Below are positions 41,767-64,000 of a DNA stretch of 64,000 nt, piece after piece. Both the position numbers and the translations under genes were made by a program. Below the pieces are notes generated by a model. The model searched no databases. It saw only the letters and a list, made by a program, of their open reading frames with translations, and was not told where the DNA came from. The stretch comes from Salipiger sp. CCB-MM3. Its GTDB lineage: Bacteria > Pseudomonadota > Alphaproteobacteria > Rhodobacterales > Rhodobacteraceae. The stretch's first letter is position 1. Every line of letters starts with the position of its first letter. The DNA is taken from assembly GCF_001687105.1 (NCBI RefSeq), contig NZ_CP014595.1, positions 1,426,001-1,490,000 on the forward strand. The letters are read 5' to 3'.

Positions 41767-42074
41767 GGGTCTCGTTCTACACGTCAGCCGGATATCCCCC
41801 AAATCCTGCGCGAACAATCGGGCGTTACCGCGGCGCTATGGGAACAATCCGGTGACTTTTGCCGAGATTGAATAAACCCCGGCGCCGCAAAACATCTCCC
41901 CCCGGCCCAAGCTCCGCCACGATTGTGCCAATTCTGCCAGCTAGAGCAGGGCAAGGCCCCGGTGGCAGGCGACAGCGCCACGCGGGACTGATATGTTGAG
42001 CGGATGGTCTTGCGGCATGGGGGTGCCGCCCGTCCCTGTCCAGAGTAAGCGTTTCACGAGCATCGCGACCCGGT
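41767..42074. promoter_or_regulatory. Divergent upstream region of the glycan locus
   Basis: This 308-nt gap separates the GT4 gene (minus) from the Wzy-like gene (plus). It contains GAACAATC at 41812-41819 and 41842-41849, exactly 30 bp apart, plus an inverted GATTGTGCC at 41921. No small gene or strong terminator is visible; it presumably carries both promoters. Confidence 0.5.
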
Positions 42075-43469: not shown

Positions 43470-43473
43470 CCTG

Positions 43474-45286: not shown

Positions 45287-45476
45287 GACGGCCCCACCCC
45301 ACTCAAACGCCACAGGTCTGCCCGACCAGCCGACATTCTTGCCCTCGGCTCGCAGTTTCGCAACACTTATGAGGCTAGGATACCCTTAGCCGCCTTTTCC
45401 TTTGCAGCCCGGACAGCGCCGCCGCTATAGTCGGCGCTGTGTTCATGCGGGGCTCATGCGGGGGCGTGAGGCGAGT

Positions 45477-49147: not shown

Positions 49148-49917
49148 CCCAGCTTCGCCCCTCCGAAGGCATCGCCGTGATCACCGGGGCCGGATCCGGC
49201 CTTGGCCGCGCCATGGCGATTGAGCTGACCCGCCGCGGCTTCACCGTCGCGGGGCTTGGCCGCCGCCGCGCCGCGCTGGAGGAAACCCGCGCCCGTGCCG
49301 AGCCGGGGCGGTTCCACCTCTTCGCCTGCGATGTCTCGAACCCGGCAGAGGTCGATCAGGCCTTCGCCCGCATCCGCGCCGAGCTTGGGCCCGTGGTCTT
49401 GCTGATCAACAACGCCGCCAGCTACCCGCGCCGCGATGTCCTAGACGAAAGCGCGACGAGCTTCATGCAGACCGTCGGCACCAATCTTGGCGGAACCATC
49501 GCCTGCAGCCGCGCCGCGCTGCAGGACATGGTGGAGAGCGGACGCGGACGCATCCTCAACGTCGCCACCTTCGCCGATCTCGCGCCGCTGCCCGCGGCCT
49601 CGGCCTATTCCGTCTCCAAAGGTGCGGCGCGCATCTTCACCCGCGCGCTGATTGCCGATCTGTCGGACCGTTTCCCGCAGATCGTCATCGGCGACTGGAT
49701 GCCCGGCATGCTGAACACGGCCATGGGCATTCCGGACGGGATCGCGCCCGAGCAGGCGGCGCGCTGGGGCGTGGCCTTGGCGCTCGACGCCGATCCGGCA
49801 CTGACCGGCGCCGTGTTCGAGATGGACCGCGAGGTGCTGCCGCCGCGCGGCCTGAAGGGCAAGCTGAAGGATGCGCTGCGTCTGCGCCGGCACCGCCCGC
49901 GCCGGATCACGCCCTAG
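49144..49917 (+). CDS. SDR family oxidoreductase
   Basis: A 257-aa short-chain dehydrogenase. The cofactor motif is TGAGSGLG (about 15-22), followed by LLINNAASYPRRD, the serine region LNVATFADLAPLPAAS and the catalytic YSVSK. The active-site position usually holding Ser has Ala-Thr (VATFADL), so catalysis may use Thr or be altered. It overlaps the GMC oxidoreductase gene by four bases and is presumably its functional partner. Its TAG stop overlaps the convergent WecG/TagA-type glycosyltransferase gene stop within a shared CTAG. Confidence 0.85.
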   Translation: MTQLRPSEGIAVITGAGSGLGRAMAIELTRRGFTVAGLGRRRAALEETRARAEPGRFHLFACDVSNPAEVDQAFARIRAELGPVVLLINNAASYPRRDVLDESATSFMQTVGTNLGGTIACSRAALQDMVESGRGRILNVATFADLAPLPAASAYSVSKGAARIFTRALIADLSDRFPQIVIGDWMPGMLNTAMGIPDGIAPEQAARWGVALALDADPALTGAVFEMDREVLPPRGLKGKLKDALRLRRHRPRRITP

Positions 49918-50690
49918 GCCTGTTTCGAGAACAGCCGCAGCAGCAGCGCCCGCACAGTCTGCCCCGGCACGATCGCAAGGCAGCGCAGGTAGCGCAGGCC
50001 CAGCCGCCGCGGGTTGCTTGCCGCGCGCCACAGCCATTCCAGCGCCATCTGCCGGGTCCATTCCGGGGCCCGCGCCTGCGTTCCGGCAAAGAAATCCAGC
50101 CCTGCGCCGATCCCGGCAAAGCCGACACCGGGTGCAAGCCGCCGTCCCGCCGCGCCAAAGATTTCCTGCTTGGGCGCGCCCAGCGCGACAAAGCACAGGC
50201 CCGCACCGGCAGCGGTGATCTCATCGAACACCGCCTCGGCCTCGGGCCCTTCGGGATCAAATCCCATGGGCGGCGAAATCGTCGCGACGACGCTCAGGTC
50301 CCGCACCTCGCGTTCGAGGAAGCTTTTCGCGCGCGACAGCGCCGCAGGCGTGCTGCCGACAAGCGCCACACCGACGCCCAGCCGCGCGGCGATCCGCGCC
50401 AGCGGCAGGATCGCGTCCGAGCCCGGGATCAGCTCGACCGGACGCCCCGCAAGCCGCGACATCCAGACGATGGGATTGCCGTCGGCCACAACAAAATCCT
50501 GCGCCGCATAGGCGGCACGGAACGGGGCGGATGTGCGCAGTTTCACAAGATGGTCGAGGTTGATCGTCGCCAGCGCAAAGCCCTGACGCTGGGCGAGCCT
50601 TTCGGTCACCCGCGCCTGCAGCGCGGCCCAGGTCGGCACGTTGACCGCCACCCGGTATCCGGCAATCTTGAATTCCATGCGCGGATCCAT
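49914..50690 (-). CDS. WecG/TagA/CpsF family glycosyltransferase
   Basis: A 258-aa transferase of the GT26 family. FALATINLDHLVKL, DFVVADGNPIVWMSRLAGRP and LIPGSDAILPLARIAARL lead into the conserved GVALVGSTPAALSRAKSFLE. LCFVALGAPKQEIF and GFAGIGAGLDFFAGTQARAP follow, then EWLWRAASNPRRLGLRYLRC. These are characteristic of enzymes that transfer N-acetylmannosamine-type sugars or glucose to lipid-linked intermediates. An alternative ATG four codons in is possible. It is divergent from the Gfo/Idh/MocA gene over a 325-nt gap and convergent with the SDR gene, sharing a CTAG at the stops. Confidence 0.9.
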   Translation of the reverse strand: MDPRMEFKIAGYRVAVNVPTWAALQARVTERLAQRQGFALATINLDHLVKLRTSAPFRAAYAAQDFVVADGNPIVWMSRLAGRPVELIPGSDAILPLARIAARLGVGVALVGSTPAALSRAKSFLEREVRDLSVVATISPPMGFDPEGPEAEAVFDEITAAGAGLCFVALGAPKQEIFGAAGRRLAPGVGFAGIGAGLDFFAGTQARAPEWTRQMALEWLWRAASNPRRLGLRYLRCLAIVPGQTVRALLLRLFSKQA

Positions 50691-51015
50691 CGGCGCGTCT
50701 TATCCCCTGTGGCCCGGGCTTGGCTCTCGCCTCTGGTCTCGGCGCGAACCCTGCCGCAAGCCGCATGGGTATCCTAGTTGCCGGTGCCAATTTGCCCGCG
50801 ACCGTGGCCGCCGTGCCGCACCCGCAAAGCAAATCCGCCGATTTCCCGGCAAAGCGGCAAACTCTCCTGCAACGCGCCGAATTTCGGTCAAATTTCTCTG
50901 GTGAATGAGCGTGACGTCGTTTTCATGATCCGTAACCAGGTTGCCGAATGATGCTGTTTCCCGTCCCCCGCCCCGCGCAATGCGCCGGTGCGCCCCGCCG
51001 CTTGGCAGGGTGCCG
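50691..51015. promoter_or_regulatory. Divergent upstream region inside the glycan locus
   Basis: This 325-nt gap separates the WecG-type gene (minus) from the Gfo/Idh/MocA gene (plus). It has an A/T-richer core around 50860-50905 compared with its surroundings, where promoters are likely. I see no strong inverted repeat and no convincing small gene. A frame open from 50941 into the Gfo/Idh/MocA gene looks like untranslated leader. Confidence 0.45.
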
Positions 51016-52143
51016 ATGACGGGACAGGTCGCCCTTCTCGGCTGCGGCTTCGTGGCGGATCTCTACCTGCGCTCGCTGCAGGCGATGGCGGGCCTCACTG
51101 TGCACTCGGTGCATGACCGCGACGCCGCCCGCCTGAGCCGTTTCTGCGCCCATTGGCAGCTGCGCGCCGAGCCGGACCTGCAGGCCTTCATAAACGCCCT
51201 GCCCGCCGACTGCATCGTGCTCAACCTGACCAACCCGGCAGAGCATTACGCGCTGAACCGGCGGCTGCTGGAGGCCGGGCACCACGTCTATTGCGAAAAG
51301 CCCCTCGCCATGGAAATCGAACAGGCGCGCGCCTTGCACGCTTTGGCCGCAGAGCGGGGCGTGATGCTGGCCTCGGCGCCCTGTTCGGTGCTGGGCGAGG
51401 CGGCGCAGACGCTAGGCCACGCGCTGCGCGAAGGCACCGCAGGCACGCCGCGCGCCATCTACGCCGAGCTTGACGACGGTTTCATCCCGCAGGCGCCCTA
51501 TCAGGGTTGGACCAGCGAGAGCGGCGCGCCATGGCCCTATGAGGACGAATTCCGTGTCGGCTGCACACTGGAACATGCGGGCTATTATCTGACGTGGCTG
51601 ATCGGATGGTTCGGCACGGTGCGCAAGGTTGTCGCGGCCTCTGCCGAAGTGCTGCCCGACAAGGCAGGCCTCGGCCCGACCGCGCCCGACCTTTCCGTCG
51701 CCACGCTGTTCTTCGAGAACGGCCCGGTGACCCGGCTCACCTGCTCGATCGTCGCCAGCCATGGCCACGGCATCCGCATCTTCGGCGACCGCGGCGTGCT
51801 CAGCTGCGAGGCCTCGTGGGACAATGCCGCCAAGGTGAAATTCGCCAAGCGCGGCACCCTGCGTCGGCGGCTGGTGGAAAGCCCCTTCCCGCGCCGCATC
51901 CGGCTGAAACAGCCCACCCACCCCAAGGTGAAACGCTGGGGCGCGGCGGCGATGAATTTCATGCTTGGCCCCGCCGAGATGCTGGACGCGCTGCGCGAGA
52001 ACCGCCCGTGCCGCCTGTCGGCGGAGTTCGCGCTGCATCTGACCGAGGTCACGCTGGCGATCCAGAACGCCGGCGAAGACGCAGGCGCGCAGGCGATGAC
52101 CACGCGCTGCGCACCGCTGGAGCCGATGCCATGGGCGCGCTGA
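51016..52143 (+). CDS. Gfo/Idh/MocA family oxidoreductase
   Basis: A 375-aa NAD(P)-dependent sugar oxidoreductase. The Rossmann motif is VALLGCGFVADLYLRSLQAM, with the family hallmark GHHVYCEKPLAMEIEQA (EKP lysine) about residue 97. The C-terminal substrate domain includes FRVGCTLEHAGYYLTWLIGW, with the catalytic histidine in EHAGYY. Start ATG 51016 begins exactly at the Rossmann strand. The 3' end overlaps the downstream epimerase gene by 13 nt. The same two activities recur as a single fused protein at 55302-57425, so the pair probably acts in sequence on one sugar. Confidence 0.88.
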   Translation: MTGQVALLGCGFVADLYLRSLQAMAGLTVHSVHDRDAARLSRFCAHWQLRAEPDLQAFINALPADCIVLNLTNPAEHYALNRRLLEAGHHVYCEKPLAMEIEQARALHALAAERGVMLASAPCSVLGEAAQTLGHALREGTAGTPRAIYAELDDGFIPQAPYQGWTSESGAPWPYEDEFRVGCTLEHAGYYLTWLIGWFGTVRKVVAASAEVLPDKAGLGPTAPDLSVATLFFENGPVTRLTCSIVASHGHGIRIFGDRGVLSCEASWDNAAKVKFAKRGTLRRRLVESPFPRRIRLKQPTHPKVKRWGAAAMNFMLGPAEMLDALRENRPCRLSAEFALHLTEVTLAIQNAGEDAGAQAMTTRCAPLEPMPWAR

Positions 52144-53129
52144 GCAGCCAGACGGCGGGCGCGGGCACGGCGCGCATCCTGCTCACCGGCGCCACCGGCT
52201 TCGTCGGGCGCGCGGTGCTGGCCGAGGCGCGCGTACAGGGGGTCGAGCTGGTCGCGGTGCTGCGCGCGGCCCCGCCCGAGGGCTGGGCGCAGATGAAAGG
52301 CGTCACGCTCTGCCGCGCCGATCTGTCGGATCCCGCCTGCGTATCCGAGCTGCGCAAGGCCGCCGAGGGCTGCAGCGCGGTGATCCATGCCGCCGCACAT
52401 CTGGGCGGCGATGCCGAGGCGGTCGAGGCAGCCACCATCGACGGCACGCGGCATCTGCTACAGGCGCTCGACGGGCTGCCGCTGCACCTCGTGCTGGTCA
52501 GTTCCATCGCCGTCTACGACACCGCGCGGCTCTCCCCCGGCGACGCGGTGACCGAGAAGCTGCCGCTCGAGGCCGTGCAGACCGCGCGCGATCCCTATGT
52601 CGCGGGCAAGCTGGCGCAGGAGGATCTCTGCCGCGCCTCCGGGCTGCCGCTGTGGATCCTGCGCCCCGGCGCGATCTTTGGCGAGGGGCGTACGTGGAAC
52701 GCCCATCTCGGGCCGGCGCTGGGGCCGCTGCTGATCCGCGTCGGCACCAAAGGCGAGCTGCCCTTGGCCCATGTCGGCCATGTGGCCAAGCGCCTGCTGC
52801 AGGCGGCGCGCCGCGCTCCCGGCGCCACGCAGGTGCTCAATATCGTCGATCCCGACCGCCCCGACCGTACCCGCTTTCTGCGCGCCCATGCGGGGTCGGG
52901 CTGGCCCAAGCTGGTGCTGCCGCTGCCGTGGCCGCTGTGGCTGGCGGCGGCGCGGATCCTGTCGCCGCTCAGGGCGCATCTGCCGGGGCTGCTGCGCGTC
53001 GCTCCGCTGAAGGCGCGGATGATGCCCCTGCGCTACCCGGACCGCGCGCTTCTATCGGCGCTTGGCCCGCTCTCGCTGCCCCGGTTTGAGACGCTGATGG
53101 CCCGCGCGTTGCAGGAGGGCCGCGAATGA
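52131..53129 (+). CDS. NAD-dependent epimerase/dehydratase family protein
   Basis: A 332-aa extended-SDR enzyme. The cofactor motif is ILLTGATGFVGRAVLAEARV (about 16-35). VIHAAAHLGGDAEAVEAATI and LVLVSSIAVYDTARLSPGD provide the conserved core. The YxxxK motif is DPYVAGKLAQE, followed by LWILRPGAIFGEGRTWNAHL. It begins within the last 13 nt of the Gfo/Idh/MocA gene and its stop overlaps the next glycosyltransferase start (ATGA). It probably acts on a nucleotide sugar or lipid-linked sugar; the exact reaction is unknown. Confidence 0.86.
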   Translation: MGALSSQTAGAGTARILLTGATGFVGRAVLAEARVQGVELVAVLRAAPPEGWAQMKGVTLCRADLSDPACVSELRKAAEGCSAVIHAAAHLGGDAEAVEAATIDGTRHLLQALDGLPLHLVLVSSIAVYDTARLSPGDAVTEKLPLEAVQTARDPYVAGKLAQEDLCRASGLPLWILRPGAIFGEGRTWNAHLGPALGPLLIRVGTKGELPLAHVGHVAKRLLQAARRAPGATQVLNIVDPDRPDRTRFLRAHAGSGWPKLVLPLPWPLWLAAARILSPLRAHLPGLLRVAPLKARMMPLRYPDRALLSALGPLSLPRFETLMARALQEGRE

Positions 53130-54334
53130 GCCGCCCCAAGCTGGCCTATCTCACCGGCGAATACCCCCGCGCGTCGGATACCTTCATCCAGCGCGAGGTG
53201 GCGGCGCTGCGCGCGATGGGGCACGAGGTGCTGACCTGCTCGATCCGCACCACCGGGGCCGAGCATCTGGTGGGCCCAGAGCAGCGCGCCGAACATGCCC
53301 AGACCTTCAAGGTGCTGGAGGCCTGCCGCGCGCCGCTGCGGCTGCTGCGCGCCCATGCCCGCTGCCTGCGCAGCCCTTCGCGCTACCTGCGCGCGTTGGC
53401 GCTGGCGTGGCGGACGGCCCCCAAGGGGCTGAAGGGCCGCGTCTACAACCTCATCTATTTCGCCGAAGCGGGGGTGCTCGCCGACCATCTGGCAGCGGCG
53501 GGCGTGCAGCATCTGCACAACCATATCGCCAAGGCCTCCTGCACCGTCGCGATGCTGGCCTCCGAGCTTTCGGGCATTCCCTACAGCTTCACCATCCATG
53601 GCCCCGACATCTTCTTTGAGCCGCACCACTGGCGCATCGACGAAAAGACCCGCCGCGCCCAGTTTGTCGCCTGCATCAGCGCCTATTGCCGCGCGCAACT
53701 GATGTGTTTCGCCGATGCCGCCGACTGGCCCAAACTGCGGATCGTGCATTGCGGCATCGACCCCGAACGCTATGCCCCCGCCGCGCAGAGCGGGCAGAGC
53801 CTGCTTTTCGTCGGGCGGCTCGCCGGGGTGAAGGGCGTGCCGGTGCTGCTGCGCGCGCTGGCGGATCTCGCCCCGCGCCATCCCGACCTGCGCCTGCGGC
53901 TGATCGGCGACGGGCCGGAGCGGGGCGCGCTCGAACGCAAGGCCGCCGAACTGGGCCTTACACAGCGCGTGGAGTTCCTTGGCTACCGCTCGCAGGCCGA
54001 GGTCGCCGAGGCGCTGAGCGCCGCCGACATCTTCGTGCTGCCAAGCTTCGCCGAAGGCGTGCCGGTGGTGCTGATGGAGGCGATGGCGGCGCAGCTTCCC
54101 GTGGTCACCACCCGCATCGCCGGGGTGCCGGAACTGGTGGAGCATGGCGCAAGCGGCCTGCTGGTGCCGCCCGGAGAGGCGGGCGCATTGGCCGCCGCGC
54201 TCGACAGCCTGCTGAGCGATCCCGACGCGCGCCGCCGCATGGGCGCCGCGGGCCGCGCCAAGGTGATCGCCGAGTTCGACATCAAAACCGAGGCCGCCAA
54301 GCTTTCGGCCCTCTTCAGCGAGGGCTCGGCATGA
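53126..54334 (+). CDS. Glycosyltransferase family 4 protein
   Basis: A 402-aa GT-B transferase. It opens KLAYLTGEYPRASDTFIQRE and has HLHNHIAKASCTVAMLASEL, then SFTIHGPDIFFEPHHWRIDE in the acceptor half. The donor half has LLFVGRLAGVKGVPVLLRAL, LIGDGPERGALERKAAELGL and FVLPSFAEGVPVVLMEAMAA (E-x7-E). This pattern is common in EPS clusters, including colanic-acid-type transferases. It overlaps both neighbours by four bases (ATGA at each junction), so the block from the Gfo/Idh/MocA gene to the GT2 gene is translationally coupled. Confidence 0.9.
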   Translation: MSRPKLAYLTGEYPRASDTFIQREVAALRAMGHEVLTCSIRTTGAEHLVGPEQRAEHAQTFKVLEACRAPLRLLRAHARCLRSPSRYLRALALAWRTAPKGLKGRVYNLIYFAEAGVLADHLAAAGVQHLHNHIAKASCTVAMLASELSGIPYSFTIHGPDIFFEPHHWRIDEKTRRAQFVACISAYCRAQLMCFADAADWPKLRIVHCGIDPERYAPAAQSGQSLLFVGRLAGVKGVPVLLRALADLAPRHPDLRLRLIGDGPERGALERKAAELGLTQRVEFLGYRSQAEVAEALSAADIFVLPSFAEGVPVVLMEAMAAQLPVVTTRIAGVPELVEHGASGLLVPPGEAGALAAALDSLLSDPDARRRMGAAGRAKVIAEFDIKTEAAKLSALFSEGSA

Positions 54335-55290
54335 GCGAGGTGGACGTGGTTCTCATCGGCCGCAATGAGGGCGTGCGGCTGGTCGCGGCGCTCGGCTCGG
54401 TGCAGGGACAGGCGCGGCAGTTGGTCTATGTGGACAGCGGCTCGACCGACGGCAGCGTCGAGGCCGCACGCAAGGCCGGGGCGCGCGTTGTCCAGCTCGA
54501 CCTTTCCACGCCCTTCACCGCCGCCCGCGCCCGCAACGCGGGATATGCCGCGCTGGACGATCCGCAGCTGGTGCAATTCATCGACGGCGATTGCGCGCTC
54601 GTGCCCGGCTACCTGCAGGCTGCTCGCGCCCATCTGCGGGCCAACCCGCAGATCGGTATGGTCACCGGCTGGCGCTCAGAGATCCACCGCGACGCCAGCC
54701 TCTACAACCAGCTCTGCGACGTGGAGTGGCGCCGCCCGGCGGGCGAGATCCTCGCCTGTGGCGGCGACATGATGGTGCGCGCCGAGGCTTTTGCCGAGGT
54801 CGGCGGCTTCGATCCCACGGTGATCGCCGCCGAGGATGACGAGTTCTGTACCCGCCTGCGCAAGGCCGGGTGGACGCTCGAACGCATCCCCCACGAGATG
54901 ACCCGCCATGACGCCGCGATGACCCGCTTCTCGCAATGGTGGCGCCGCGCTGTGCGCACCGGCCACGGGTTTGCGCAGGTCGGCCATCTGCACCCCGAGT
55001 ATTTCACCACAGAGCGCAAGCGCGCGCTGGTCTATGCGCTTGGCCTGCCGCTGCTGCTCCTGCTTGGCCTGCTGATCGTCGGGCCGCTGGCGCTGCTGGT
55101 GCTCGCCGCCTATCCGCTCAACTGGGCCCGCACCGCGCGCGGCCTGCGCCGCGAGGGGCTGCCCGTCCCCGAGGCACGCCGCCACGCGCTGCTGCTCACC
55201 CTTTCGAAGTTTCCCAATCTCGTCGGCATGGCCACCTACCATTGGCGGCGCCTGCGGCAGGCACCGATGCGCCTGATCGAGTATAAGTAA
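54331..55290 (+). CDS. Glycosyltransferase family 2 protein
   Basis: A 319-aa GT-A transferase. SEVDVVLIGRNEGVRLVAAL and VYVDSGSTDGSVEAARKAGA form the nucleotide-binding start, and VQFIDGDCALVPGYLQAARA contains the DxD-type IDGDC. GGFDPTVIAAEDDEFCTRLR holds the catalytic ED region. A C-terminal pair of membrane segments (about 230-265; LVYALGLPLLLLLGLLIVGP) anchors it. It overlaps the GT4 gene by four bases, and the fused oxidoreductase/epimerase gene follows after 11 nt. Sugar specificity unknown. Confidence 0.9.
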   Translation: MSEVDVVLIGRNEGVRLVAALGSVQGQARQLVYVDSGSTDGSVEAARKAGARVVQLDLSTPFTAARARNAGYAALDDPQLVQFIDGDCALVPGYLQAARAHLRANPQIGMVTGWRSEIHRDASLYNQLCDVEWRRPAGEILACGGDMMVRAEAFAEVGGFDPTVIAAEDDEFCTRLRKAGWTLERIPHEMTRHDAAMTRFSQWWRRAVRTGHGFAQVGHLHPEYFTTERKRALVYALGLPLLLLLGLLIVGPLALLVLAAYPLNWARTARGLRREGLPVPEARRHALLLTLSKFPNLVGMATYHWRRLRQAPMRLIEYK

Positions 55291-55301
55291 GGACCCCCGC
55301 C

Positions 55302-57425
55302 ATGCCCCAACCTTGGTCAAAGCCGCAACCCATTCGCGTCGGCCTCATCGGCGCAGGCTATATCGCAAGCTGGCACGCCGATGCGCTGGCCGCGACCGAG
55401 GACGCGGTGGTCGCCGCCGTCTGCGACCTCTCGCAGCCCGCCGCCGAAGGGCTGGCGCTGCCGCATGGCGCGCAGGTCTTCGGCACAGTCGAGGCGCTGA
55501 TCGAAAGCGGTGCCTGCGACGCGGTGCATATCCTCACCCCGCCGCATCTGCATGCCGCCTTGGCGCAGCAATGCCTGAAGGCCGGGCTGCATGTGCTGGT
55601 GGAAAAGCCGGTGGCGGTGAGCCTTGACGAAACCCGCGCCATCGCCGCCGCTGCCGAGGCGGCGGGCAAACGCTTTCACCCCGGGCACAACTTCCTTGGC
55701 CTGCCCTCTTATGTGCGGATGAAAGAGGCGCTGCGGGCGGGCGATTATGGCCGCGTCTCGCAGGCCGAGATCAGCTGGGCGCTGCCGCTGGCGCCGCTGC
55801 GCTCGGGGCCTTTCAACCTGTGGCTGCTGCGCGAGCCCAAGAACTTGCTGCTGGAACTGGGGCCGCATCCCTTCGCCTTCGCCGTCGATCTCTTCGGCCC
55901 GCTCGAGGTGCTCTACGCCGAGGCGACGAAACCCGTCCCGCTGCCCGGCGATGATCCGCGCCCGCAGGGTTTCCGCATCCTCGCGCGCGCAGGCGGTGTC
56001 GAGATCACCTTCAGCCTGTCGATGGTCGAAACGGTCGATGACCGCTCGGTCACCCTGCGCGGCTCCTCGGGGCGGGCGCGGCTCGACTATGCGGCCGACA
56101 CGCTTGTGGTGGACCGCGAGAACGCCTCGGACCTCATCGTGAACCCGCTGCGCAGACAGGTGGACCTCGGCTGGCAGCATCTGCGCGAAGGCCTGCGCAA
56201 CGCCGCCGTGCAAACCGCCTCGCTGAACCAGAAAGGCCCCTATGCGCAAAGCTTCCGGGGCATGTGCGCGGCGGTCTATGGCGCGCTGGCGCGGGGCAAG
56301 CCGCAGGACGCCCGCTTTTCCGCCGAGAGCGCGGTGCAGGTGATGCAGGCCATCGACGCCGCCATCGCCAAGCTGCCGCCCGAGGCGCTGGAGGTGAAGG
56401 CCCCCGCCGTGCAGAGCCGCAAGCCGCAGCCCACCGCCATGGTGATCGGCGGCACCGGCTTTATCGGGCGCGCGCTGACCCGCAAGCTGGTGGCAGAGGG
56501 CCACGACGTGCGGGTGCTGTCGCGCGGTCGCCATGGCCCCTTCCCCGATCTGCCCGATCAGGTCGAGACGGTGGGCGTCTCGCTGCATGATCTCGATGCG
56601 CTGACCGAGGCGATGCAGGGCATCGACGTGGTCTACAACCTTGCCCGCTCGCTGGAAAAGACATGGGCCGAGGCGCTGGTGAACGACGTGGGTGTCGCCA
56701 CCCGCATCGCCATGGCCTGCGAGAAAGCCGGGGTGAAGCGCCTCGTCTACACCGGCACGATCGCCAGCTACGATATGTCCGATCCGGGCGTGCAGATCAC
56801 CGAAGAGACCCGCTTTCCCAAGGATATGTCGGACCGCAACCTCTACGCCCGCTCCAAGGCCGAATGCGAACGGCAGTTGATGAAGCTGCACCGCGAGCGC
56901 GGCCTGCCCGTCACCATCGCCCGCCCCGGCATCGTGGTCGGCCATGGCGGGCCGCTGCAGCACTGGGGCATCGGGCGCTGGCATGGCGCGGGCGCGGTGC
57001 GCATCTGGGGGCCGGGCAAGAACATCCTGCCCTTCGTGCTGATCGACGATGTCGCCGAGGGGCTGATGCGGATGGGCGAACATCCCGGCGCGGTGGGCGA
57101 GAGCTTCAACCTCGTGGGCGAGCCGATGCTGAGCGCCCGCGACTATTTCGACGCGATCCACGAAACGCTGGGCGCGCGCATCCGCGTCAGTTCAGGCAAC
57201 CTCAACGTCTTCTACGCCAGCGACGCGGTGAAATACGGGCTGAAGAAATACGCGCTGCGCAAGCGCGGGCTGGTGCGCCCCTCGCGCGCCGACTGGCAAA
57301 GCCGGGCGCATTTCTCGCCGTTCGTCAACGACAAGCCCAAGCGCGTGCTCGGCTGGCAGCCCGAGGCGGATCGCGCCGTCTTACTTGAAAAGGCGATCAC
57401 GCAGGCCAATCTCTTTGGCTTCTAG
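55302..57425 (+). CDS. Fused Gfo/Idh/MocA oxidoreductase-NAD epimerase/dehydratase
   Basis: A 707-aa bifunctional protein. Residues about 8-365 are a Gfo/Idh/MocA oxidoreductase: RVGLIGAGYIASWHADALAA, HVLVEKPVAVSLDETRAIAA and LLELGPHPFAFAVDLFGPL. Residues about 378-707 are an extended SDR: AMVIGGTGFIGRALTRKLVA, VVYNLARSLEKTWAEALVND and LVYTGTIASYDMSDPG, then NLYARSKAECERQLMKL as the Y-x3-K region. A TIARPGIVVGHGGPLQHW segment follows. The same two families occur as separate, adjacent genes at 51016-53129. It probably performs consecutive redox/epimerase steps on a sugar of this glycan; no specific reaction can be assigned. Confidence 0.88.
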   Translation: MPQPWSKPQPIRVGLIGAGYIASWHADALAATEDAVVAAVCDLSQPAAEGLALPHGAQVFGTVEALIESGACDAVHILTPPHLHAALAQQCLKAGLHVLVEKPVAVSLDETRAIAAAAEAAGKRFHPGHNFLGLPSYVRMKEALRAGDYGRVSQAEISWALPLAPLRSGPFNLWLLREPKNLLLELGPHPFAFAVDLFGPLEVLYAEATKPVPLPGDDPRPQGFRILARAGGVEITFSLSMVETVDDRSVTLRGSSGRARLDYAADTLVVDRENASDLIVNPLRRQVDLGWQHLREGLRNAAVQTASLNQKGPYAQSFRGMCAAVYGALARGKPQDARFSAESAVQVMQAIDAAIAKLPPEALEVKAPAVQSRKPQPTAMVIGGTGFIGRALTRKLVAEGHDVRVLSRGRHGPFPDLPDQVETVGVSLHDLDALTEAMQGIDVVYNLARSLEKTWAEALVNDVGVATRIAMACEKAGVKRLVYTGTIASYDMSDPGVQITEETRFPKDMSDRNLYARSKAECERQLMKLHRERGLPVTIARPGIVVGHGGPLQHWGIGRWHGAGAVRIWGPGKNILPFVLIDDVAEGLMRMGEHPGAVGESFNLVGEPMLSARDYFDAIHETLGARIRVSSGNLNVFYASDAVKYGLKKYALRKRGLVRPSRADWQSRAHFSPFVNDKPKRVLGWQPEADRAVLLEKAITQANLFGF

Positions 57426-57670
57426 GCACGCCGAGTCGGCCTCATGGGGCTGCCACGGATCGTGAACAATCCCCGCAATTTCACCTCATTCTTGACCGAA
57501 TCGAATGGTGTTCTGGGGACGAAGGTAAATATCGAGTGCGCGCGCCGGGGCCCAGCGGCCCCAGCGAGACAAGGCAGGACAAAGAGCGGTATAGTTCCAC
57601 GGCAGGTGCGAGACGCGCCGCCGGAACGGATCCGGCAGCGCCCCTGCCCGTGCGGTGCGGAGAGACGAGT

Positions 57671-58792
57671 ATGGTAGAACGCCGGAGATTCCGCCGTCGG
57701 AAGCGGAGCGAAGAGACGCCGGAGGATCCCCCGATCCTTCCGCTCGAGCGCCGTGAAGAGCGTCTCGCCCGCCGCCGTGCCGACCGCGACGCCGAAGAGG
57801 CCCGTGCCGCCGCGCAGGTCCGGGTACGCCGTCAGGCCGAAGAGGCCGAACGCGAGCAGGCCGAGAGAGAACGGGCCGCGCAAGAGCAGGCCGAACGCGA
57901 GCAGGCCGAGATGGAGGCTGCGCGGCGCGAGCTTGCCAGCCTTCGGCCCACCGCTCCTGCTGCCTCTGCCGAACAGCTTGCCCCCGCTCAGACCGTTCCG
58001 CCCGCTGCGGAGGCACCGGCCCGCCCGCCGCGCCGCGCCGTCACCCGGCGTCCGGCACCGCAGGCCACGCTGCTGTGGGATCAGCTTCCGGTCTTCGAGA
58101 TCGACAGCGATCATCTCGAACGCAACCGCATCATCACCGCCAACCGCGAAGATCCGGCCCATGCCGCCTTTGACGTGCTGCGCACGCGGCTGACGCAGGC
58201 GCTCGCCGAAAACGGCTGGACCCGCGTCGGCATCACCTCGCCCAGCAAGGGATGCGGCAAGACTTTCACCGCCGCCAACCTCGCGATCAGCCTGTCGCGG
58301 CAGGAGGGTCTGCGCGCCATGCTGATGGACCTCGACCTGCGCAACCCGTCGCTGCACAAGGCAATGGGCGTCCGCGCGCCGGGCTGCATGGGTGCGCTGC
58401 TGCGCGGCGCGATCTCGCCCGAGGCGCATCTGATGCGCATGGGAGAGAACCACATCCACGCCGGGCACGACATCGCCTTCGGCTTCAACGAGGTGATCGA
58501 GCCCTATGCCGCCGAACTGCTGAACGCTCCGGCCACCGCCGAAGTGCTGACTTCGATCGAGGCGCGGCTGCAGCCGGATGTGATGCTCTTCGACCTGCCG
58601 CCCGCGCTTTACTACGACGACGTGCTGGCCTTCCGCCCGCAGATCGACGGCGTGCTGCTGGTGGTCGGCGGCGGCATCACCACCGAGCGCGAGATTCGCG
58701 AGGTCGAGCGCAGGCTCGGCACCTCGACGCCGCTGCTGGGGATGGTGCTGAACAAGGCCGAGGGCACGGAGCTCAAGAAATACCAGTATTGA
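57671..58792 (+). CDS. CpsD/CapB-type tyrosine kinase (BY-kinase) with N-terminal coiled coil
   Basis: A 373-aa protein. Residues 28-92 form a highly charged Arg/Glu/Ala/Gln helix (for example AEREQAERERAAQEQAEREQ) predicted to be a coiled coil, then a Pro/Ala-rich linker. The kinase domain starts about 150 with Walker A SPSKGCGKTF (190-199), Walker A' LMDLDLRNPSLHK and the third motif in VMLFDLPPALYYDD. These are features of bacterial tyrosine kinases that control polysaccharide chain length with Wzz-type partners. The C-terminus ELKKYQY has only two tyrosines, fewer than usual. Start ATG 57671 follows GGAGAGACGAGT. A shared terminator separates it from the convergent Wzz/GumC gene. Confidence 0.85.
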   Translation: MVERRRFRRRKRSEETPEDPPILPLERREERLARRRADRDAEEARAAAQVRVRRQAEEAEREQAERERAAQEQAEREQAEMEAARRELASLRPTAPAASAEQLAPAQTVPPAAEAPARPPRRAVTRRPAPQATLLWDQLPVFEIDSDHLERNRIITANREDPAHAAFDVLRTRLTQALAENGWTRVGITSPSKGCGKTFTAANLAISLSRQEGLRAMLMDLDLRNPSLHKAMGVRAPGCMGALLRGAISPEAHLMRMGENHIHAGHDIAFGFNEVIEPYAAELLNAPATAEVLTSIEARLQPDVMLFDLPPALYYDDVLAFRPQIDGVLLVVGGGITTEREIREVERRLGTSTPLLGMVLNKAEGTELKKYQY

Positions 58793-58885: not shown

Positions 58886-60196
58886 TCAGGCCCCGACGCG
58901 CGGCAGGAACCGCTCGATCAGCGGCAGCCGGTCGCCCAGCACGCGCAGGATGCCAAAGATCAGCGCCGCCAAGGCCAGCAGCAGCGCCACGATCCCCAGC
59001 CCCTTGCGGCGGCGGTCGCGGCGGGTCTTCACCGGCGGGATCGCCACCACAGGCTGCACGCCCAGCACCCGCTCCATCTGGCTGGCGGTGCGCAGCGCGG
59101 GGTTCATCATCTCGGCGACAAAGCCGGTGATCAGCCCGGCAAAGAGGCTGGCAATGGCACCCACGGCCACCAGCTTGCGGCGGCTCTGCGAGGCCGCGAC
59201 CTCGGGCACCAGCGCCGTTTCCAGCACTTCGAAACGGTCCGACTGCTGACGATCCTCGAGCATCTGGCCCATCTCGGCATCCGCCTTGCGGCGGGTGATG
59301 ACGCTGTATTGGTCCTGCAGTTGGGTGCGCTCGCGCTCCAGCCCGTTGAGCGTACGCTCGACCTCGGGGGCGCGGCGGATGGTGTCCTCAAGCGAGGCGA
59401 TGCGCGCGGTGATCAGCTGCTTCTGCTCTTGCAGCAGGGCCAGCTGACGGGTCAGCACATCTTCGCGCTGCCGCGAGGAATTGGCGTCGAGCGCAACGAT
59501 GTCCCGGTCGAGATCGAGCTTGTTGTCCTCAAGCGTCGCCAGTTGGTCCCGCATCGCGGCAAGGCCCGACGGCAGCGCCTCGGAGTTCTTCTGCTTGAAG
59601 TCGGCAATACGGGCGTCCATCGCCTCGATCTGCGTCTCGACCCGCGCTTCTTCAGCCTCGAAGAAGGCCAGCGCGTCGCGGGCACGCGTCTCACTGCGGT
59701 TGCGCGACTGGTCGATCACCGACTGCATCAGCTCATTGGCCAGATCGGCGGCCTTCTGCGGATCATCGAGACGCACAGTGATCATCAGCCCCGACGGCAT
59801 GCGCGGCTGGCCATAGGCCGGGTTGCCCGACTGGATCTCTTCGATCGTGGCGGCCTTGCGCATGTTAAACACGCGCTCGTTCACCGTCATATTGGGGATG
59901 TTGCTGAACAGGTTATGCTTTTCCATGATCCGCACGAGGTTGTCGCGCGACATGATCCGCTGCTCGATCAGCTGCACCCGGCGCGAGGCATCCTCGGACA
60001 CGGTGGCGGGGTTGGTCGTGGTGGGCGCGACCTGCGCGTCTTCGATCTGAACTACTGCCGTCGCCTCATAAAGCTTGGGCTGATTCAGCGCGAAGAACAC
60101 GGAAATCCCGGTGCCCAGAACGAACACCAGAAAGATCAGGCCGAAGCGGCGGCGCAGTGCGGACAACACTTCGTCAAACGATTGGAACTGGTTCAT
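58886..60196 (-). CDS. Wzz/GumC-type polysaccharide chain-length determinant
   Basis: A 436-aa inner-membrane protein. The N-terminus FDEVLSALRRRFGLIFLVFV provides the first membrane segment (about 15-38) and the Wzz domain (YEATAVVQIEDAQVAPTTTN). A long periplasmic coiled coil covers about 165-315, a second membrane segment lies at about 330-352 (KLVAVGAIASLFAGLITGFV) and a third near the C-terminus (GLGIVALLLALAALIFGILR). The third segment after a short ERVLGVQPVVAIPPV loop is typical of GumC-like proteins that partner with a separate BY-kinase. The kinase gene is convergent next door. Three 11-bp-spaced repeats lie 116-150 nt upstream of the start. Confidence 0.88.
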   Translation of the reverse strand: MNQFQSFDEVLSALRRRFGLIFLVFVLGTGISVFFALNQPKLYEATAVVQIEDAQVAPTTTNPATVSEDASRRVQLIEQRIMSRDNLVRIMEKHNLFSNIPNMTVNERVFNMRKAATIEEIQSGNPAYGQPRMPSGLMITVRLDDPQKAADLANELMQSVIDQSRNRSETRARDALAFFEAEEARVETQIEAMDARIADFKQKNSEALPSGLAAMRDQLATLEDNKLDLDRDIVALDANSSRQREDVLTRQLALLQEQKQLITARIASLEDTIRRAPEVERTLNGLERERTQLQDQYSVITRRKADAEMGQMLEDRQQSDRFEVLETALVPEVAASQSRRKLVAVGAIASLFAGLITGFVAEMMNPALRTASQMERVLGVQPVVAIPPVKTRRDRRRKGLGIVALLLALAALIFGILRVLGDRLPLIERFLPRVGA

Positions 60197-60417: not shown

Positions 60418-61074
60418 TCAGCGGTGCGAAACGGCGCATACGGACAGAATGAGGCCCAATTCGGCGATCTGAAGCATTGGAAATAGGGTGCCGCGCCCTA
60501 GCCCCATTTCCGCCACCATTCGCATCCGAGGATCAGGAAGCAGCGATTCCATCGCCTCAAATCCGAACAGGCTGCGGGTCAGCGGGTATTGCGCCTTATA
60601 GGCGGCTTCCTTAGCGCTGAAGATCCGCACCCCAGCGCGTTCGAAAGGCAGCGGGCTGAGGCGGGAAAGCTCCGGCACGCTGGCGATCGCCGGAATGAGC
60701 CGCGGCTCCATCGGCGCATCAAGTTCGAGGTCGATGCCAAGCGCGCGCCAGTCTTGCGCCCGCGCCGCCATCGCAAGGCAGATGCCCCCGGCATGGGTGA
60801 TGCTGGCCACCACCCCGCCCGGCCAGACCGGCGCGCGGTCCTCGGCCTTGGGGATCGCCAGATCCGGCAGGCCAAGCTGGCGCAGGGCCGCCCGCGCCGC
60901 GAGCCTTCCCCCGGCGAACTCCGCCCGTCTGGCGGGCACCGCGCGGGACATCGCCTCGCGCTCGACGGGGTAAAGCTCCGACAGATCTTCGGTCGGCTCC
61001 GAGACCGCCCAGACCACCCCCTCGGGCAGCGCCACGCGGGTCAGAAGGTCGCGAAGATCGGCGGCCCCGGCCAT
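60418..61074 (-). CDS. 4'-phosphopantetheinyl transferase (EntD type)
   Basis: A 218-aa enzyme that attaches the phosphopantetheine arm of CoA to carrier domains. The magnesium-binding motif is LGIDLE (about 112-117), the second motif is FSAKEAAYKAQYPLTR, and VVASITHAGGICLAMA and RRAEFAGGRLAARAALRQLG support the EntD/Sfp-like EntD subgroup. The start codon lies one base after the stop of the NRPS gene, so the transferase is co-translated with it and most probably activates its carrier domain. The 221 nt beyond its stop, up to the Wzz/GumC gene, hold that gene's promoter region. Confidence 0.92.
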   Translation of the reverse strand: MAGAADLRDLLTRVALPEGVVWAVSEPTEDLSELYPVEREAMSRAVPARRAEFAGGRLAARAALRQLGLPDLAIPKAEDRAPVWPGGVVASITHAGGICLAMAARAQDWRALGIDLELDAPMEPRLIPAIASVPELSRLSPLPFERAGVRIFSAKEAAYKAQYPLTRSLFGFEAMESLLPDPRMRMVAEMGLGRGTLFPMLQIAELGLILSVCAVSHR

Positions 61075-61075
61075 C

Positions 61076-64000
61076 TCAGGCGCTGCGCCGCGCGCGCATC
61101 TCGCGCCGCCGGGCCATCGCGTCGGACCGCGCGCGGGCGCGTTCGTTCATCGGCTGTGCCGGAGCCGCATCGCTGGCCGTCTCGGCGACGGGCTCGGGCG
61201 CAACCGCTTTCGCCGCCGCAGGCGCCGGGGCTGCGACCCTCGGGCGCGGCGCTTTGCCCGAGCCGGAACCGGTGCCCGAGCCGGAGCCAAGACCGGCGAC
61301 ACGCCCGGCCAGATCCTCCAGCACCGGGAAGCGGAAGATATCGGTGATCGACAGCCCCCGCGCGCCCAGATCGTCGCGGATCGCGCGATGCGCCTGAACC
61401 GCCAGCAGCGAATGGCCGCCCAGCTCGAAGAAATTGTCGCGCCCCGAAATCCCCTGCACGCCCAGCACCGCCTGCCAGATCTCGGCAATCGCGGCCTGCA
61501 CCTTGCCGGTATCGGCGGCACTGGCTTGATCGGGCGCGGCACTGGCTGCCGCAGGCTGCGCGGGCGCGGGCGCGGCCGGACGCGGCGCGGCCACAGGCTT
61601 GCGCGCCACCGGCGCGGGCAGCGCCTTGCGGTCGACCTTCTTGTTCGGGGTCAGCGGGAAGCTCTCCAGCGCGACGAAATGCGCCGGCACCATGAAGGCA
61701 GGCAACCCCTTGCCCATCTCGGCCCGCAGCGCCGCGTCGTTCACCGGCGCGGGCGCGGTGTAATAGCCCACCAGCCGCAGATCGCCGGGCGTATCTTCGC
61801 GCGCGACCACCACGGCCTGCGCGATGCCCGGCTGCGCCTCCATGACCGCCTCGATCTCGCCAAGCTCGATCCGGTAGCCGCGCAGCTTCACCTGGTTGTC
61901 GACGCGCCCGATAAAGTCGATCCGCCCGTCCATGCGCCGCCGCACCAGATCGCCGGTGCGGTACATGCGGCCTGCGTGGAACGGGTTGGACACGAAGCGC
62001 TCGGCGGTGAGTTCCTCGCGGTCCCAATAGCCGCGCGTCACACCCTCGCCGCCGATCCACAACTCGCCGGGCACACCCACGCCCACCGGCTGCTGCGCCT
62101 CATCCAGCACGTAAAGCTGCTGGTTCGCCAGCGGCAGGCCGATGTTCACCACACCCTCGGCGGCGCGCGCATCCTCGGTCGAGGACCAGATCGTCGTCTC
62201 GGTGGGCCCGTACATATTGGTCACCGAAGCGTCGGTGATCCGCCCGAACTCCTCGACCAGCGCGCCGGGCAGCGGCTCGCCGCCAAGGAACAGATGATCC
62301 ACCTTCGACAGCGCAAAGCGCGCCTCGTCGTTCATCGCGATCATCCGCGCCATCGAGGGCGTGCACTGCATATGGGTGACCCCATGGCGCAGAATCTGCG
62401 CGGCGATCGAGAAATCATCCTCGGCCAGTTCCGGCGCCACATTCGCCCGCTTCACCACCTCGGCCAGCGGCTTCAGCCCCTCCAGCACCCTATCCACGGG
62501 GATGCCATAGTCGATCAGGCAGGCGATCTCGCCCACGCCGATGCGTTTGAGCTGCTCGGTCCGTTCCAGCGCGTCCTCGACCGTGCCGAAGAGCCCGCTT
62601 TCGTTGAAATACCGCTCGAAGGCGAAATCCAGAATGGCCTCAAGGTCGTCCGGCTCCAGAATGTCGAGGTCCAGATCGAAGGCGTTGTTCACCCCTTTCG
62701 GGCGTTTGAACGCCGGGAAGGCCCATGCGTATTGCTTGATCAGCGCCGCCGCCGACCGCAGGTATTCGCGCATCGGGCCGCGGGCGATCTCGCGCGCCTC
62801 GTCACGGGTGTCTGCAACAAAGCTGTGCAGCATCAGCGTGACGGTGAAATCCTTCGGATCGCGCCCGGCCTCGCGCAGCGCCGCATGGTAGAGACGGATC
62901 ATCTCGGCCACATCGTCGATGCTCTGGCCCAGCAGGTGGGTCAGCACGTTGCAGCCATGGGTGCCCGCATCCTTCCACGTCTGCGGGTTGCCGGCGACGG
63001 TCAGCCAGAGCGGCAGGTCTTTCGACACCGGGCGCGGCTGGGTCACTACGTCGAACATCGAGCCATCCTTGCGCGGGAACGGCACGGGCTTGCCGGACCA
63101 CAGATCCCGAATTTGGGAAATATTCTCGATCACGGCGCGTTTGTTGTCCGGCGGCGTGTTTTCGGGCCGCAGCACGAAGTCATCGGGCTGCCAGCCCGAG
63201 GCCAGCGCCAGCCCTGCCCGGCCGTTGGTCAGATTGTCGATCACCGCCCATTCCTCGGTGATCCGCGCCGGGTGGTGCAGCGGCGAGACGACCGACCCTG
63301 AACGCACGGCCAAATTCTCGGTCACTGCCGCCACCGCAGCGCCGGTCACCGAGGGGTTGGGATAGGGCCCGCCGAAGGCGTGGAAATGCCGCTCGGGCGT
63401 CCAGACCGCGCAGAACCCGTGCTTGTCGCCGAACTTCGCGCCCTCCAGCAGCAGCCGGTATTTGTCACGACCGACGCCATCGTCATTGCCCCAATAGTAG
63501 AGCGAGAACTCCATGCGCTGGTCCGACAGCGGCATCGGCCCGTTCGAGATCAGCCCGCGATCCTCGTCCGAGGTCAGCACCACCTTGAAGCCGCGCGCCA
63601 GCGTGTAGAACAGCTCCAGCACCGAGATGTCGAAGCTGAGGCTGGTCACGGCGAGCCATGTCCCCGCGGGGACATGCGGTACCACCGCGTCCATGCCGGT
63701 GAAGAAGTTCACCACGTTGCGCTGTTCGACCATCACCCCCTTGGGCGTGCCGGTCGAGCCGCTGGTGTAGATCAGATAAGCGATATCCTCGGGCGCGCTG
63801 GTCGTCTCGGGGCGCGCGGCGGGGGCCTGCGCCAGCCGCGGATCGGCGTCGAGCAGCAGCAGATCCGCGCCATGTTCGGGCAGCGTTTCCGCCAGCGCCG
63901 ATTGCGTGACGATCACCGGGGCGCGGCTGTCCGAGATATAGTGCTGCAGCCGGTCCGCCGGATAGGCGGGATCGAGCGGCAGATAGGCCCCGCCCGCCTT
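61076..64000 (-). CDS. Nonribosomal peptide synthetase with luciferase-like monooxygenase inserted in the adenylation domain (5' end outside window)
   Basis: The last 974 residues are visible. In order they show adenylation motif A2 (KAGGAYLPLDPAYPADRL at the edge), A3 (YLIYTSGSTGTPKGV) and A4 (TSLSFDISVLELFY). Then comes an insert of about 358 residues (62440-63514) of the MupA/Atu3671-type FMN-dependent luciferase-like monooxygenase: FSLYYWGNDDG, GFCAVWTPERHFHAFGG, GSVVSPLHHPARITEEWAVI and LWLTVAGNPQTWKDAG. Adenylation then resumes: A5 (NMYGPTETTIWSS), A6 (GELWIGGEGVTRGYW), A7 (YRTGDL), A8 (VDNQVKLRGYRIELGEIE) and A10 (KKVDRKALP). A carrier domain follows (DNFFELGGHSLLAVQ, near 61420), then a Gly-Ser/Ala-Pro tail ending in a basic helix. 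No thioesterase is present. It is coupled to the phosphopantetheinyl transferase gene. Confidence 0.9.
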   Translation of the reverse strand, partial: KAGGAYLPLDPAYPADRLQHYISDSRAPVIVTQSALAETLPEHGADLLLLDADPRLAQAPAARPETTSAPEDIAYLIYTSGSTGTPKGVMVEQRNVVNFFTGMDAVVPHVPAGTWLAVTSLSFDISVLELFYTLARGFKVVLTSDEDRGLISNGPMPLSDQRMEFSLYYWGNDDGVGRDKYRLLLEGAKFGDKHGFCAVWTPERHFHAFGGPYPNPSVTGAAVAAVTENLAVRSGSVVSPLHHPARITEEWAVIDNLTNGRAGLALASGWQPDDFVLRPENTPPDNKRAVIENISQIRDLWSGKPVPFPRKDGSMFDVVTQPRPVSKDLPLWLTVAGNPQTWKDAGTHGCNVLTHLLGQSIDDVAEMIRLYHAALREAGRDPKDFTVTLMLHSFVADTRDEAREIARGPMREYLRSAAALIKQYAWAFPAFKRPKGVNNAFDLDLDILEPDDLEAILDFAFERYFNESGLFGTVEDALERTEQLKRIGVGEIACLIDYGIPVDRVLEGLKPLAEVVKRANVAPELAEDDFSIAAQILRHGVTHMQCTPSMARMIAMNDEARFALSKVDHLFLGGEPLPGALVEEFGRITDASVTNMYGPTETTIWSSTEDARAAEGVVNIGLPLANQQLYVLDEAQQPVGVGVPGELWIGGEGVTRGYWDREELTAERFVSNPFHAGRMYRTGDLVRRRMDGRIDFIGRVDNQVKLRGYRIELGEIEAVMEAQPGIAQAVVVAREDTPGDLRLVGYYTAPAPVNDAALRAEMGKGLPAFMVPAHFVALESFPLTPNKKVDRKALPAPVARKPVAAPRPAAPAPAQPAAASAAPDQASAADTGKVQAAIAEIWQAVLGVQGISGRDNFFELGGHSLLAVQAHRAIRDDLGARGLSITDIFRFPVLEDLAGRVAGLGSGSGTGSGSGKAPRPRVAAPAPAAAKAVAPEPVAETASDAAPAQPMNERARARSDAMARRREMRARRSA

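Follow-up and report, generated by a model that had tools for sequence, protein, structure and literature searches.

A formyltransferase-started synthetase module with a luciferase-like monooxygenase inside its adenylation domain, encoded with a polyketide synthase in exopolysaccharide loci of Rhodobacterales

The stretch analyzed here, 64,000 nucleotides of the Salipiger sp. CCB-MM3 genome (contig NZ_CP014595.1, positions 1,426,001 to 1,490,000; hereafter the window), ends within a gene for a nonribosomal peptide synthetase (NRPS). The adenylation (A) domain of this NRPS is interrupted, between motifs A4 and A5, by a luciferase-like monooxygenase (LLM). We propose, with a probability of about two in three, that the protein is a chain-initiating module acting together with one polyketide synthase (PKS) module. 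Glycine would be loaded, N-formylated, alpha-oxidized and passed to the PKS.

An adenylation domain interrupted by a luciferase-like monooxygenase

The larger part of the NRPS gene lies within the window, as a single minus-strand open reading frame (64000 to 61076). The original prediction had read this stretch, 61076..64000, as an A domain split by an LLM and followed by a carrier domain in one frame. The stretch is real, with two corrections: the gene is on the minus strand, and the window edge cuts it and leaves its 3' part, which encodes residues 603-1576. Its upstream part was read from the whole genome, and positions beyond the edge are window-equivalent. The complete gene starts at 65806, outside the window, ends at 61076 (L009:3077-7807:-) and encodes 1576 amino acids. 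Obtaining it with its neighbours, a check proposed at the outset, revealed an N-terminal formyltransferase (FT) and half of a condensation domain, both encoded beyond the window edge, as well as a PKS and a GT2 glycosyltransferase. According to Pfam and NCBIfam, the domain order is FT, C-terminal lobe (C-lobe) of a condensation domain, first part of the A domain, LLM, second part of the A domain, peptidyl carrier protein (PCP) and basic tail. The matches are Formyl_trans_N at residues 76-160, Formyl_trans_C at 199-277, AMP-binding at 537-750 and again from about 1120, AMP-binding_C at 1317-1390 and PP-binding at 1439-1502. AMP-binding, TIGR04020 and PP-binding, the families singled out beforehand for domain searches, thus all matched.

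The inserted LLM (residues 767-1117; 62456..63508, minus strand) matches TIGR04020 with 454.1 bits over model positions 1-340 of 341, the curated cut-off being 244.45; in the genome search the score is 458.8 bits. Bac_luciferase of Pfam matches at residues 777-1091 (E 2.4e-44). These matches are far beyond chance. The TIGR04020 match spans 351 residues, in agreement with the insert of about 358 residues first noticed. AlphaFold2 models were built for the orthologue of Alloyangia pacifica, from 36 sequences each. In the model of the A-LLM-A region (mean pLDDT 82.9, pTM 0.69, weak loops), Foldseek aligns solved A domains across the insert, for example 4d56 (TMt 0.80) and 1amu (TMt 0.68-0.71). 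With the query as reference, the TM-scores stay low to modest (0.34-0.49 among the matches listed) because the query contains two bodies. The insert itself superimposes on 6ket, the flavin monooxygenase OX domain of a hybrid PKS/NRPS (TMt 0.88, 44% identity), which a PDB sequence search names PuwE. Profile, Pfam and structural comparisons agree on an LLM between A4 and A5. By its family name the insert should depend on flavin mononucleotide, and flavin oxygenase activity is predicted from the fold match to 6ket. Many columns along the LLM are invariant in 36 aligned sequences.

Conservation was assessed in 81 aligned sequences, the window's own gene and its relatives from 80 loci. These loci are the best 80 of 557 relatives confirmed in a scan of GTDB species genomes, so counts over them favour close relatives. 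In the window, the first part of the A domain (from residue 603; 63509..64000, minus strand) contains A3 (678-691) and A4 (FDISVLEL, 725-732); the second part (61601..62455, minus strand) runs from A5 to A10 and includes AMP-binding_C. The LLM is placed after the A4 strand (FDISVLEL...FKVVL), ahead of the segment leading towards A5. Key residues of A3, A4, A5, A7, A8 and A10 are kept in 81/81 sequences, as is Lys1390, which we take to be the catalytic lysine of the A domain. This rules out a degenerate A domain. The observations named in advance as fatal to the idea, an insert that is not luciferase-like or degeneration at the lysine, A5 or A8, were not made: A3, A5, A7, A8 and Lys1390 are intact.

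The substrate pocket of the window's protein (D726, I727, L730, Q1147, F1173, G1175, M1198, I1206, W1207, K1390) reads DILQFGMIWK. Across the 81 sequences the code is DILQxGMIWK, with M (42), F (26), Y (9) or L (4) at the variable position; position 322 is M in 80/81. The Aminobacter orthologue has exactly DILQLGMIWK, and relatives in which the module has a condensation domain (hereafter condensation-type) have DILQLGMIWK (L119), DILQLGMVWK (L124) and DMVQLGMVWK (a Streptomyces module). Published work is cited here from excerpts of the papers; according to one of them, DILQLGMIWK is the code of all four of its A domains with a monooxygenase (MOX) insert, all of which activate glycine (PMC12283262). 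The window's code has nine of these ten letters, with F for L at position 299. From its pocket, the A domain appears to activate glycine. N-hydroxylation and a hydroxy-acid substrate were rejected in view of the glycine/MOX pocket code. The original prediction had offered hydroxylation, N-oxidation or oxidative cleavage of a carrier-bound aminoacyl or hydroxy-acyl substrate. Oxidation on the carrier still is most likely, N-oxidation and a hydroxy-acyl substrate are unsupported, and because the pocket reads DILQFGMIWK, alpha-hydroxylation of glycine, or an ensuing oxidative C-N cleavage, is much the likeliest chemistry.

The PCP (residues 1439-1502; 61301..61492, minus strand; PP-binding match) carries the phosphopantetheine serine, Ser1466, which is present in 80/81 rows, the remaining row having X. 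Behind a low-complexity linker, the protein ends in a short, conserved basic tail (61079..61144, minus strand). A similar tail is seen in 27 rows (every third of the 81), and weaker versions occur in some relatives outside the family. This tail may be a docking element for the PKS.

Formyltransferase start, polyketide synthase partner and exopolysaccharide locus

Residues N94, H96 and D132 of the FT, presumably catalytic, are kept in 81/81 sequences. The model of the FT with the half condensation domain (Alloyangia pacifica) has a pLDDT of 94.2, and Foldseek matches the FT to ArnA and Fmt first, with TMt of about 0.8 for single-domain entries. The FT gives a match to Formyl_trans_C as well, and one to Fmt/ArnA that covers about 300 columns. 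Between the FT and the A domain, the condensation motif HHxxxD was searched for and is absent in 81/81 sequences. In a comparison with six condensation regions chosen by hand, this linker region matches only columns 199-458 of 463 (hhalign probability 96.3, E 1.7e-9); in a PDB profile search it matches only the ends of condensation domains that adjoin A domains (best E 1.3e-6). Since HHxxxD is absent and only the C-lobe is matched, the FT occupies the place of the condensation donor lobe, and the module therefore looks like an initiation module. The complete upstream condensation domain of the myxothiazol/melithiazol type of module, through which the growing chain acylates the glycine, is lacking here. 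The module resembles a chain-release module in its working, but is not one.

Upstream of the NRPS gene, likewise on the minus strand and with ends that overlap or almost meet, are a gene for a GT2 glycosyltransferase and one for a 2160-residue PKS with ketosynthase (KS), acyltransferase (AT), ketoreductase (KR), dehydratase (DH), acyl carrier protein (ACP) and thioesterase (TE) domains. Past the PKS gene come a Wzx-type flippase and a second GT2. In the 80 related loci, the NRPS and GT2 are found 80/80 times and the PKS 79/80 times; the sole locus without PKS (L032) is a contig of only 8.7 kb. Junctions within this triad are mostly within a few bases, and the larger values reflect, at least in part, a mechanical choice of starts or, in L071, a second NRPS picked by its length. 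Besides its triad, the 26-kb stretch of L071 (Hydrogenophaga sp. IBVHS1) indeed encodes another NRPS, about 1975 residues long (38% to the query). A PKS gene also adjoins the FT-type NRPS in 9/9 extra loci (L118, L120, L121, L123, L127, L134, L135, L138, L139; the FT of L139 and L123 was established by Pfam). L118, L120 and L127 have both genes on one strand, with that of the NRPS immediately ahead of that of the PKS, so that loading and extension are encoded in colinear order; in L121 and L123 the two genes are divergent. The PKS protein of the alphaproteobacterial L120 (L120:2-7459) extends into a condensation and an A domain and has no TE in the stretch covered; the same starter pair seems there to feed a longer assembly line. 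Among 74 long PKS sequences, the KS cysteine (TACS) is present in 74 (73 by a stricter pattern), the two KS histidine patterns in 74 and 73, and the AT, KR NADPH, KR Tyr/Asn, ACP and TE motifs in all 74.

On the other side of the NRPS gene, directly downstream, is a gene for a 4'-phosphopantetheinyl transferase (60418..61074, minus strand; 4PPT_N E 1.7e-24, ACPS E 2.3e-8), with a homologue in 65/80 loci. It is followed by a Wzz-type chain-length determinant (58886..60196, minus strand; family match, homologue in 64/80 loci) and a ParA/CpsD-like P-loop ATPase (57536..58792, plus strand; CbiA E 3.2e-7, homologue in 52/80 loci). The rest of the locus (40546..57425) encodes GT4 glycosyltransferases, an AT3-SGNH acyltransferase, a GMC oxidoreductase, an SDR protein, WecG/TagA, Gfo/Idh/MocA dehydrogenases, epimerases and a GT2. 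Wzx is present in 57/80 loci. We read these surroundings as an exopolysaccharide locus. At least one of Wzz, Wzx, ParA/CpsD and WecG occurs within 10 kb in 73/80 loci, versus 0/17 control stretches, each 20 kb long and cut out at one set position from further genomes of the window's family. Among the seven loci without these markers, L067 and L089 are contigs of about 10 kb. Loci of this kind also occur in Paracoccus, Aminobacter and Shinella. Scanning the window with Rfam and for tRNA genes gave no match.

Two siderophore-related candidates were rejected. A fabrubactin-type system is set aside on two grounds: the LLM gene on the Agrobacterium plasmid is free-standing, and no metallophore genes were recognized in the annotated locus. 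A DNA match on another contig of the same genome (C2:458000-476000, L019) is not a second copy, as its translations look, by eye, like the EntF/EntE type; with its iron-transport genes it is apparently a separate siderophore cluster. Next to the locus is a gene for a 1011-residue protein with an RTX calcium-binding repeat match (L018:4165-7200), and relatives of this protein are found near the triad in 48/80 loci.

Known systems and distribution

LgrA of linear gramicidin synthase, a known FT-A-PCP initiation module, likewise has an FT fused ahead of A-PCP. It is not known to have an LLM insert and uses a different amino acid. Unlike in LgrA, the FT of the window's protein is joined through a condensation C-lobe and matches Formyl_trans_C and Fmt/ArnA. 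RkpA, of the Sinorhizobium capsular polysaccharide, is a type I PKS-like protein within a polysaccharide locus, a likeness of setting, and is not known to have an NRPS or LLM partner.

The modules concerned in the biosynthesis of the myxobacterial antibiotics myxothiazol and melithiazol are presumably MtaG and MelG. They share with the module studied here the type of insert, the a4-a5 junction and the glycine substrate (PMC10204066). In these two clusters a flavin monooxygenase between a4 and a5 hydroxylates the glycyl alpha-carbon, with cleavage (PMC10204066), and release of myxothiazol by cleavage of the glycyl unit is also described in PMC9396620. With the MOX-glycine code of PMC12283262, A4-A5 inserts and their chemistry are therefore already in print, contrary to the view that they were essentially undescribed. 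The published code (PMC12283262) is one letter from the window's; the four domains that share it may include those of MtaG and MelG. On the site of insertion the excerpts differ: PMC12283262 gives A8-A9 as the general site, MOX included, as against a4-a5 for myxothiazol in PMC10204066, and PMC11355689 gives a8-a9 and sometimes a2-a3. We took the junction of the myxothiazol type from PMC10204066. Compared by description, MtaG and MelG act on a finished chain and release an amide, whereas the window's module is FT-started, has an incomplete condensation domain and would feed a PKS. The solanimycin protein SolF likewise has a glycine-predicted A domain with a flavin monooxygenase; alpha-hydroxyglycine is kept, as in solanimycin B, and the chain is extended further (PMC10204066). 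It differs in having the insert between a8 and a9 and a condensation domain in its module.

The OX domain of PuwE (6ket), MupA and Atu3671 belong to the same luciferase-like family. PuwE differs in being a hybrid PKS/NRPS whose LLM domain lies outside any A domain; the puwainaphycin monooxygenase is proposed to help make a 3-amino-2-hydroxy acyl chain (PMC4219810). The LLM on an Agrobacterium tumefaciens plasmid is free-standing, between a PKS gene and an NRPS gene. FbnE of fabrubactin, a flavin-dependent monooxygenase, is proposed to make alpha-hydroxycarboxylates (PMC12971057) and may be this LLM. In Phaeobacter inhibens T5, the PKS Inhi_1972 and the NRPS Inhi_1974 are two locus numbers apart (PMC4062626) and may be the same triad. 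No description of the FT-A(LLM)-PCP/PKS pair was found in the open-access literature searched, most subscription journals being outside this scope. Thus junction, insert class and substrate are already known; the initiation-type architecture with its PKS and exopolysaccharide setting was not found in print.

The 80 loci belong mostly to Rhodobacterales, with five from Hydrogenophaga (L071, L076, L081, L089, L094). In the window's family, 105/295 genomes of a spread sample have the LLM above the curated cut-off, and at least two of these have separate LLM genes instead of NRPS inserts (L131, L132). Sampling of the phylum gave matches at E 1e-60 in 19/398 genomes, ten of them in the window's family. 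The nine loci from outside the family comprise four of FT-A(LLM)-PCP type (L118, L120, L121, L123), two of condensation-A(LLM)-PCP type (L119, L124; condensation domain confirmed by Pfam) and three with the LLM in another setting (L122, L125, L126). Sampling of the class gave matches at E 1e-90 in 11/385 genomes, of which five belong to the family. It added five out-of-family loci, and four of these were covered: one of FT type (L127), two with the LLM in PKS proteins (L128, L130) and one with the LLM in a large NRPS (L129); the fifth, G947, of the same genus as G864, was left out. In the alphaproteobacterial condensation-type protein of L119 (L119:6042-11621), the A domain is apparently doubly interrupted, by the LLM at A4-A5 and by a methyltransferase (1344-1463) inside AMP-binding_C.

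Eighty-one plasmid records contain an LLM match, and seven were examined. Plasmids of Aminobacter niigataensis, Shinella zoogloeoides, Rhizobium grahamii and Paracoccus liaowanqingii carry an FT-type gene beside a PKS gene, with polysaccharide-type genes around. That of Paracoccus marcusii (L133:11764-16355) has an FT-type system in which FT and A-LLM-PCP are annotated as separate genes that overlap in different frames, through either a true split of the gene or a frameshift. In another P. marcusii record (hit H20) the LLM is in three pieces. The Agrobacterium record contains the free-standing LLM. The Streptomyces record (L137:9775-15569) contains a condensation-type A(LLM)-PCP gene; immediately after it comes a gene for a flavin reductase, which may supply the reduced flavin.

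In a tree of 47 A-LLM-A regions, one branch (support 95/81) divides three condensation-type modules from eight out-of-family FT types, with a warning by the tree program that the long branches of the condensation-type modules may group falsely. Of the five Hydrogenophaga sequences, the tree includes four (L071, L076, L081, L094), which form one clade among those of Rhodobacterales. This position suggests transfer between classes.

Proposed pathway, alternatives and meaning

What the sequence shows directly is the order of the domains, the intactness of the catalytic motifs, the glycine/MOX code, the partnership of the genes and the locus. From family knowledge and published cases we infer the chemistry, that is, formylation and alpha-hydroxylation of glycine, the order of steps, the transfer to the PKS, the product, the fate of the oxidation and the link to the polysaccharide. 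The A domain would adenylate glycine and load it onto the PCP, where the N-terminal FT would formylate the glycyl amine using formyl-tetrahydrofolate. With reduced flavin and O2, the LLM in the A4-A5 loop would hydroxylate the alpha-carbon of the carrier-bound glycine. The resulting (N-formyl-alpha-hydroxy)glycyl unit would then pass to the PKS (KS-AT-KR-DH-ACP-TE) for probably one extension, a reduction and perhaps a dehydration, and the TE would free a small amino-polyketide acid. Judging from the GT2 gene between the two synthase genes, and from the locus around them, the product may be joined to, or exported with, the exopolysaccharide.

Several observations weigh against this pathway. In the window's family the gene order is PKS-GT2-NRPS, which is not colinear. 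A GT2a-like gene was looked for in the five out-of-family FT-type stretches (L118, L120, L121, L123, L127) and none was found, which argues against GT2 being essential to the NRPS-PKS pair; the Shinella locus has such a gene at another place. Among the 74 PKS sequences, a narrow KR serine pattern fits only 51, and the canonical DH spacing HxxxGxxxxP occurs in none, one extra residue being present in 73. The window's DH, moreover, has a glycine in its second motif, where glutamine or histidine is usual. This altered DH motif of the clade makes dehydration, and with it the degree of reduction, uncertain; the distant L118 and L127 have the canonical spacing. An alpha-hydroxylated N-acyl glycine is prone to cleavage, and the open-access literature searched yielded no product, substrate assay or mutant for the module. 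The link to the polysaccharide comes from gene neighbourhood alone. As for the FT, no match to its Asn-x-His pattern was found in the alphaproteobacterial FT-type protein L127:6502-11010, whose FT may be altered. In the PDB profile search with the window's FT, ArnA is the top match and several sugar formyltransferases also stand above LgrA; because ArnA and Fmt outrank LgrA, an amino sugar of the polysaccharide could be the FT substrate.

On this last account, the FT would act on the polysaccharide and not on glycine, and the fusion or operon would couple sugar decoration with the aminoacyl-polyketide. The ranking of ArnA first by both the profile search and Foldseek (with Fmt in the latter), the position of the genes in an exopolysaccharide locus and the two-gene annotation in Paracoccus marcusii are all in its favour. 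Yet the FT sits exactly at the site of the donor lobe with the remnant lobe retained, which argues for action on the adjoining PCP, and LgrA offers a precedent for an FT-A-PCP initiation module. We consider formylation of a sugar unlikely. It is far less credible still that the LLM is catalytically silent or structural, the module supplying only formylglycine to the PKS. No flavin reductase gene was recognized among the annotated neighbours of the window's NRPS, unlike next to the Streptomyces gene, but free flavin reductases elsewhere in a genome can supply such monooxygenases. The strong conservation of the LLM in 36 sequences and its score over the cut-off in so many genomes of the family also speak against a silent insert.

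Oxidation could, alternatively, end in cleavage as in myxothiazol. The hydroxylated N-formylglycyl-PCP, a carbinolamide, would collapse, formamide would leave and a glyoxylyl-PCP would stay. The PKS would then extend a two-carbon aldehyde acid into a fumaric-semialdehyde-like unit, and the formyl group would serve only as leaving group. The same insert class and glycine code go with cleavage of the glycyl unit in myxothiazol and melithiazol (PMC10204066, PMC9396620, PMC12283262), but alpha-hydroxyglycine is kept in solanimycin B (PMC10204066). Moreover, the myxothiazol amide is the finished chain, whereas here only formamide would be lost, which would be wasteful of the formyl donor. Such a cleavage therefore seems improbable to us, and we favour a formylated, alpha-hydroxylated glycyl unit that is handed intact to the PKS.

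As for the product, a tentative and rather doubtful suggestion is that the NRPS-PKS pair is dedicated to a tiny polysaccharide modifier, a reactive four-carbon unit obtained after a single PKS round, which the glycosyltransferase or other machinery of the locus would fix to the exopolysaccharide of marine Rhodobacterales. Candidates on this suggestion would be 4-formamido-4-hydroxy-crotonate, its formamido-butenolide or, after cleavage, a fumaric-semialdehyde-like acid. If true, the assembly line would work for the cell surface and not towards a free antibiotic or siderophore.

What is unusual here is the setting: an FT-capped initiation version of the interrupted module, which travels with a PKS in exopolysaccharide loci of many marine bacteria, accompanied by a GT2 glycosyltransferase in the Rhodobacterales and Hydrogenophaga loci examined. 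Its small size, with one amino acid and probably one ketide, makes full reconstitution realistic and offers a simple system in which to ask whether an LLM at A4-A5 keeps or cleaves the alpha-hydroxyglycyl unit. As a common and conserved assembly line of bacteria many of which are marine, it could explain a surface trait.

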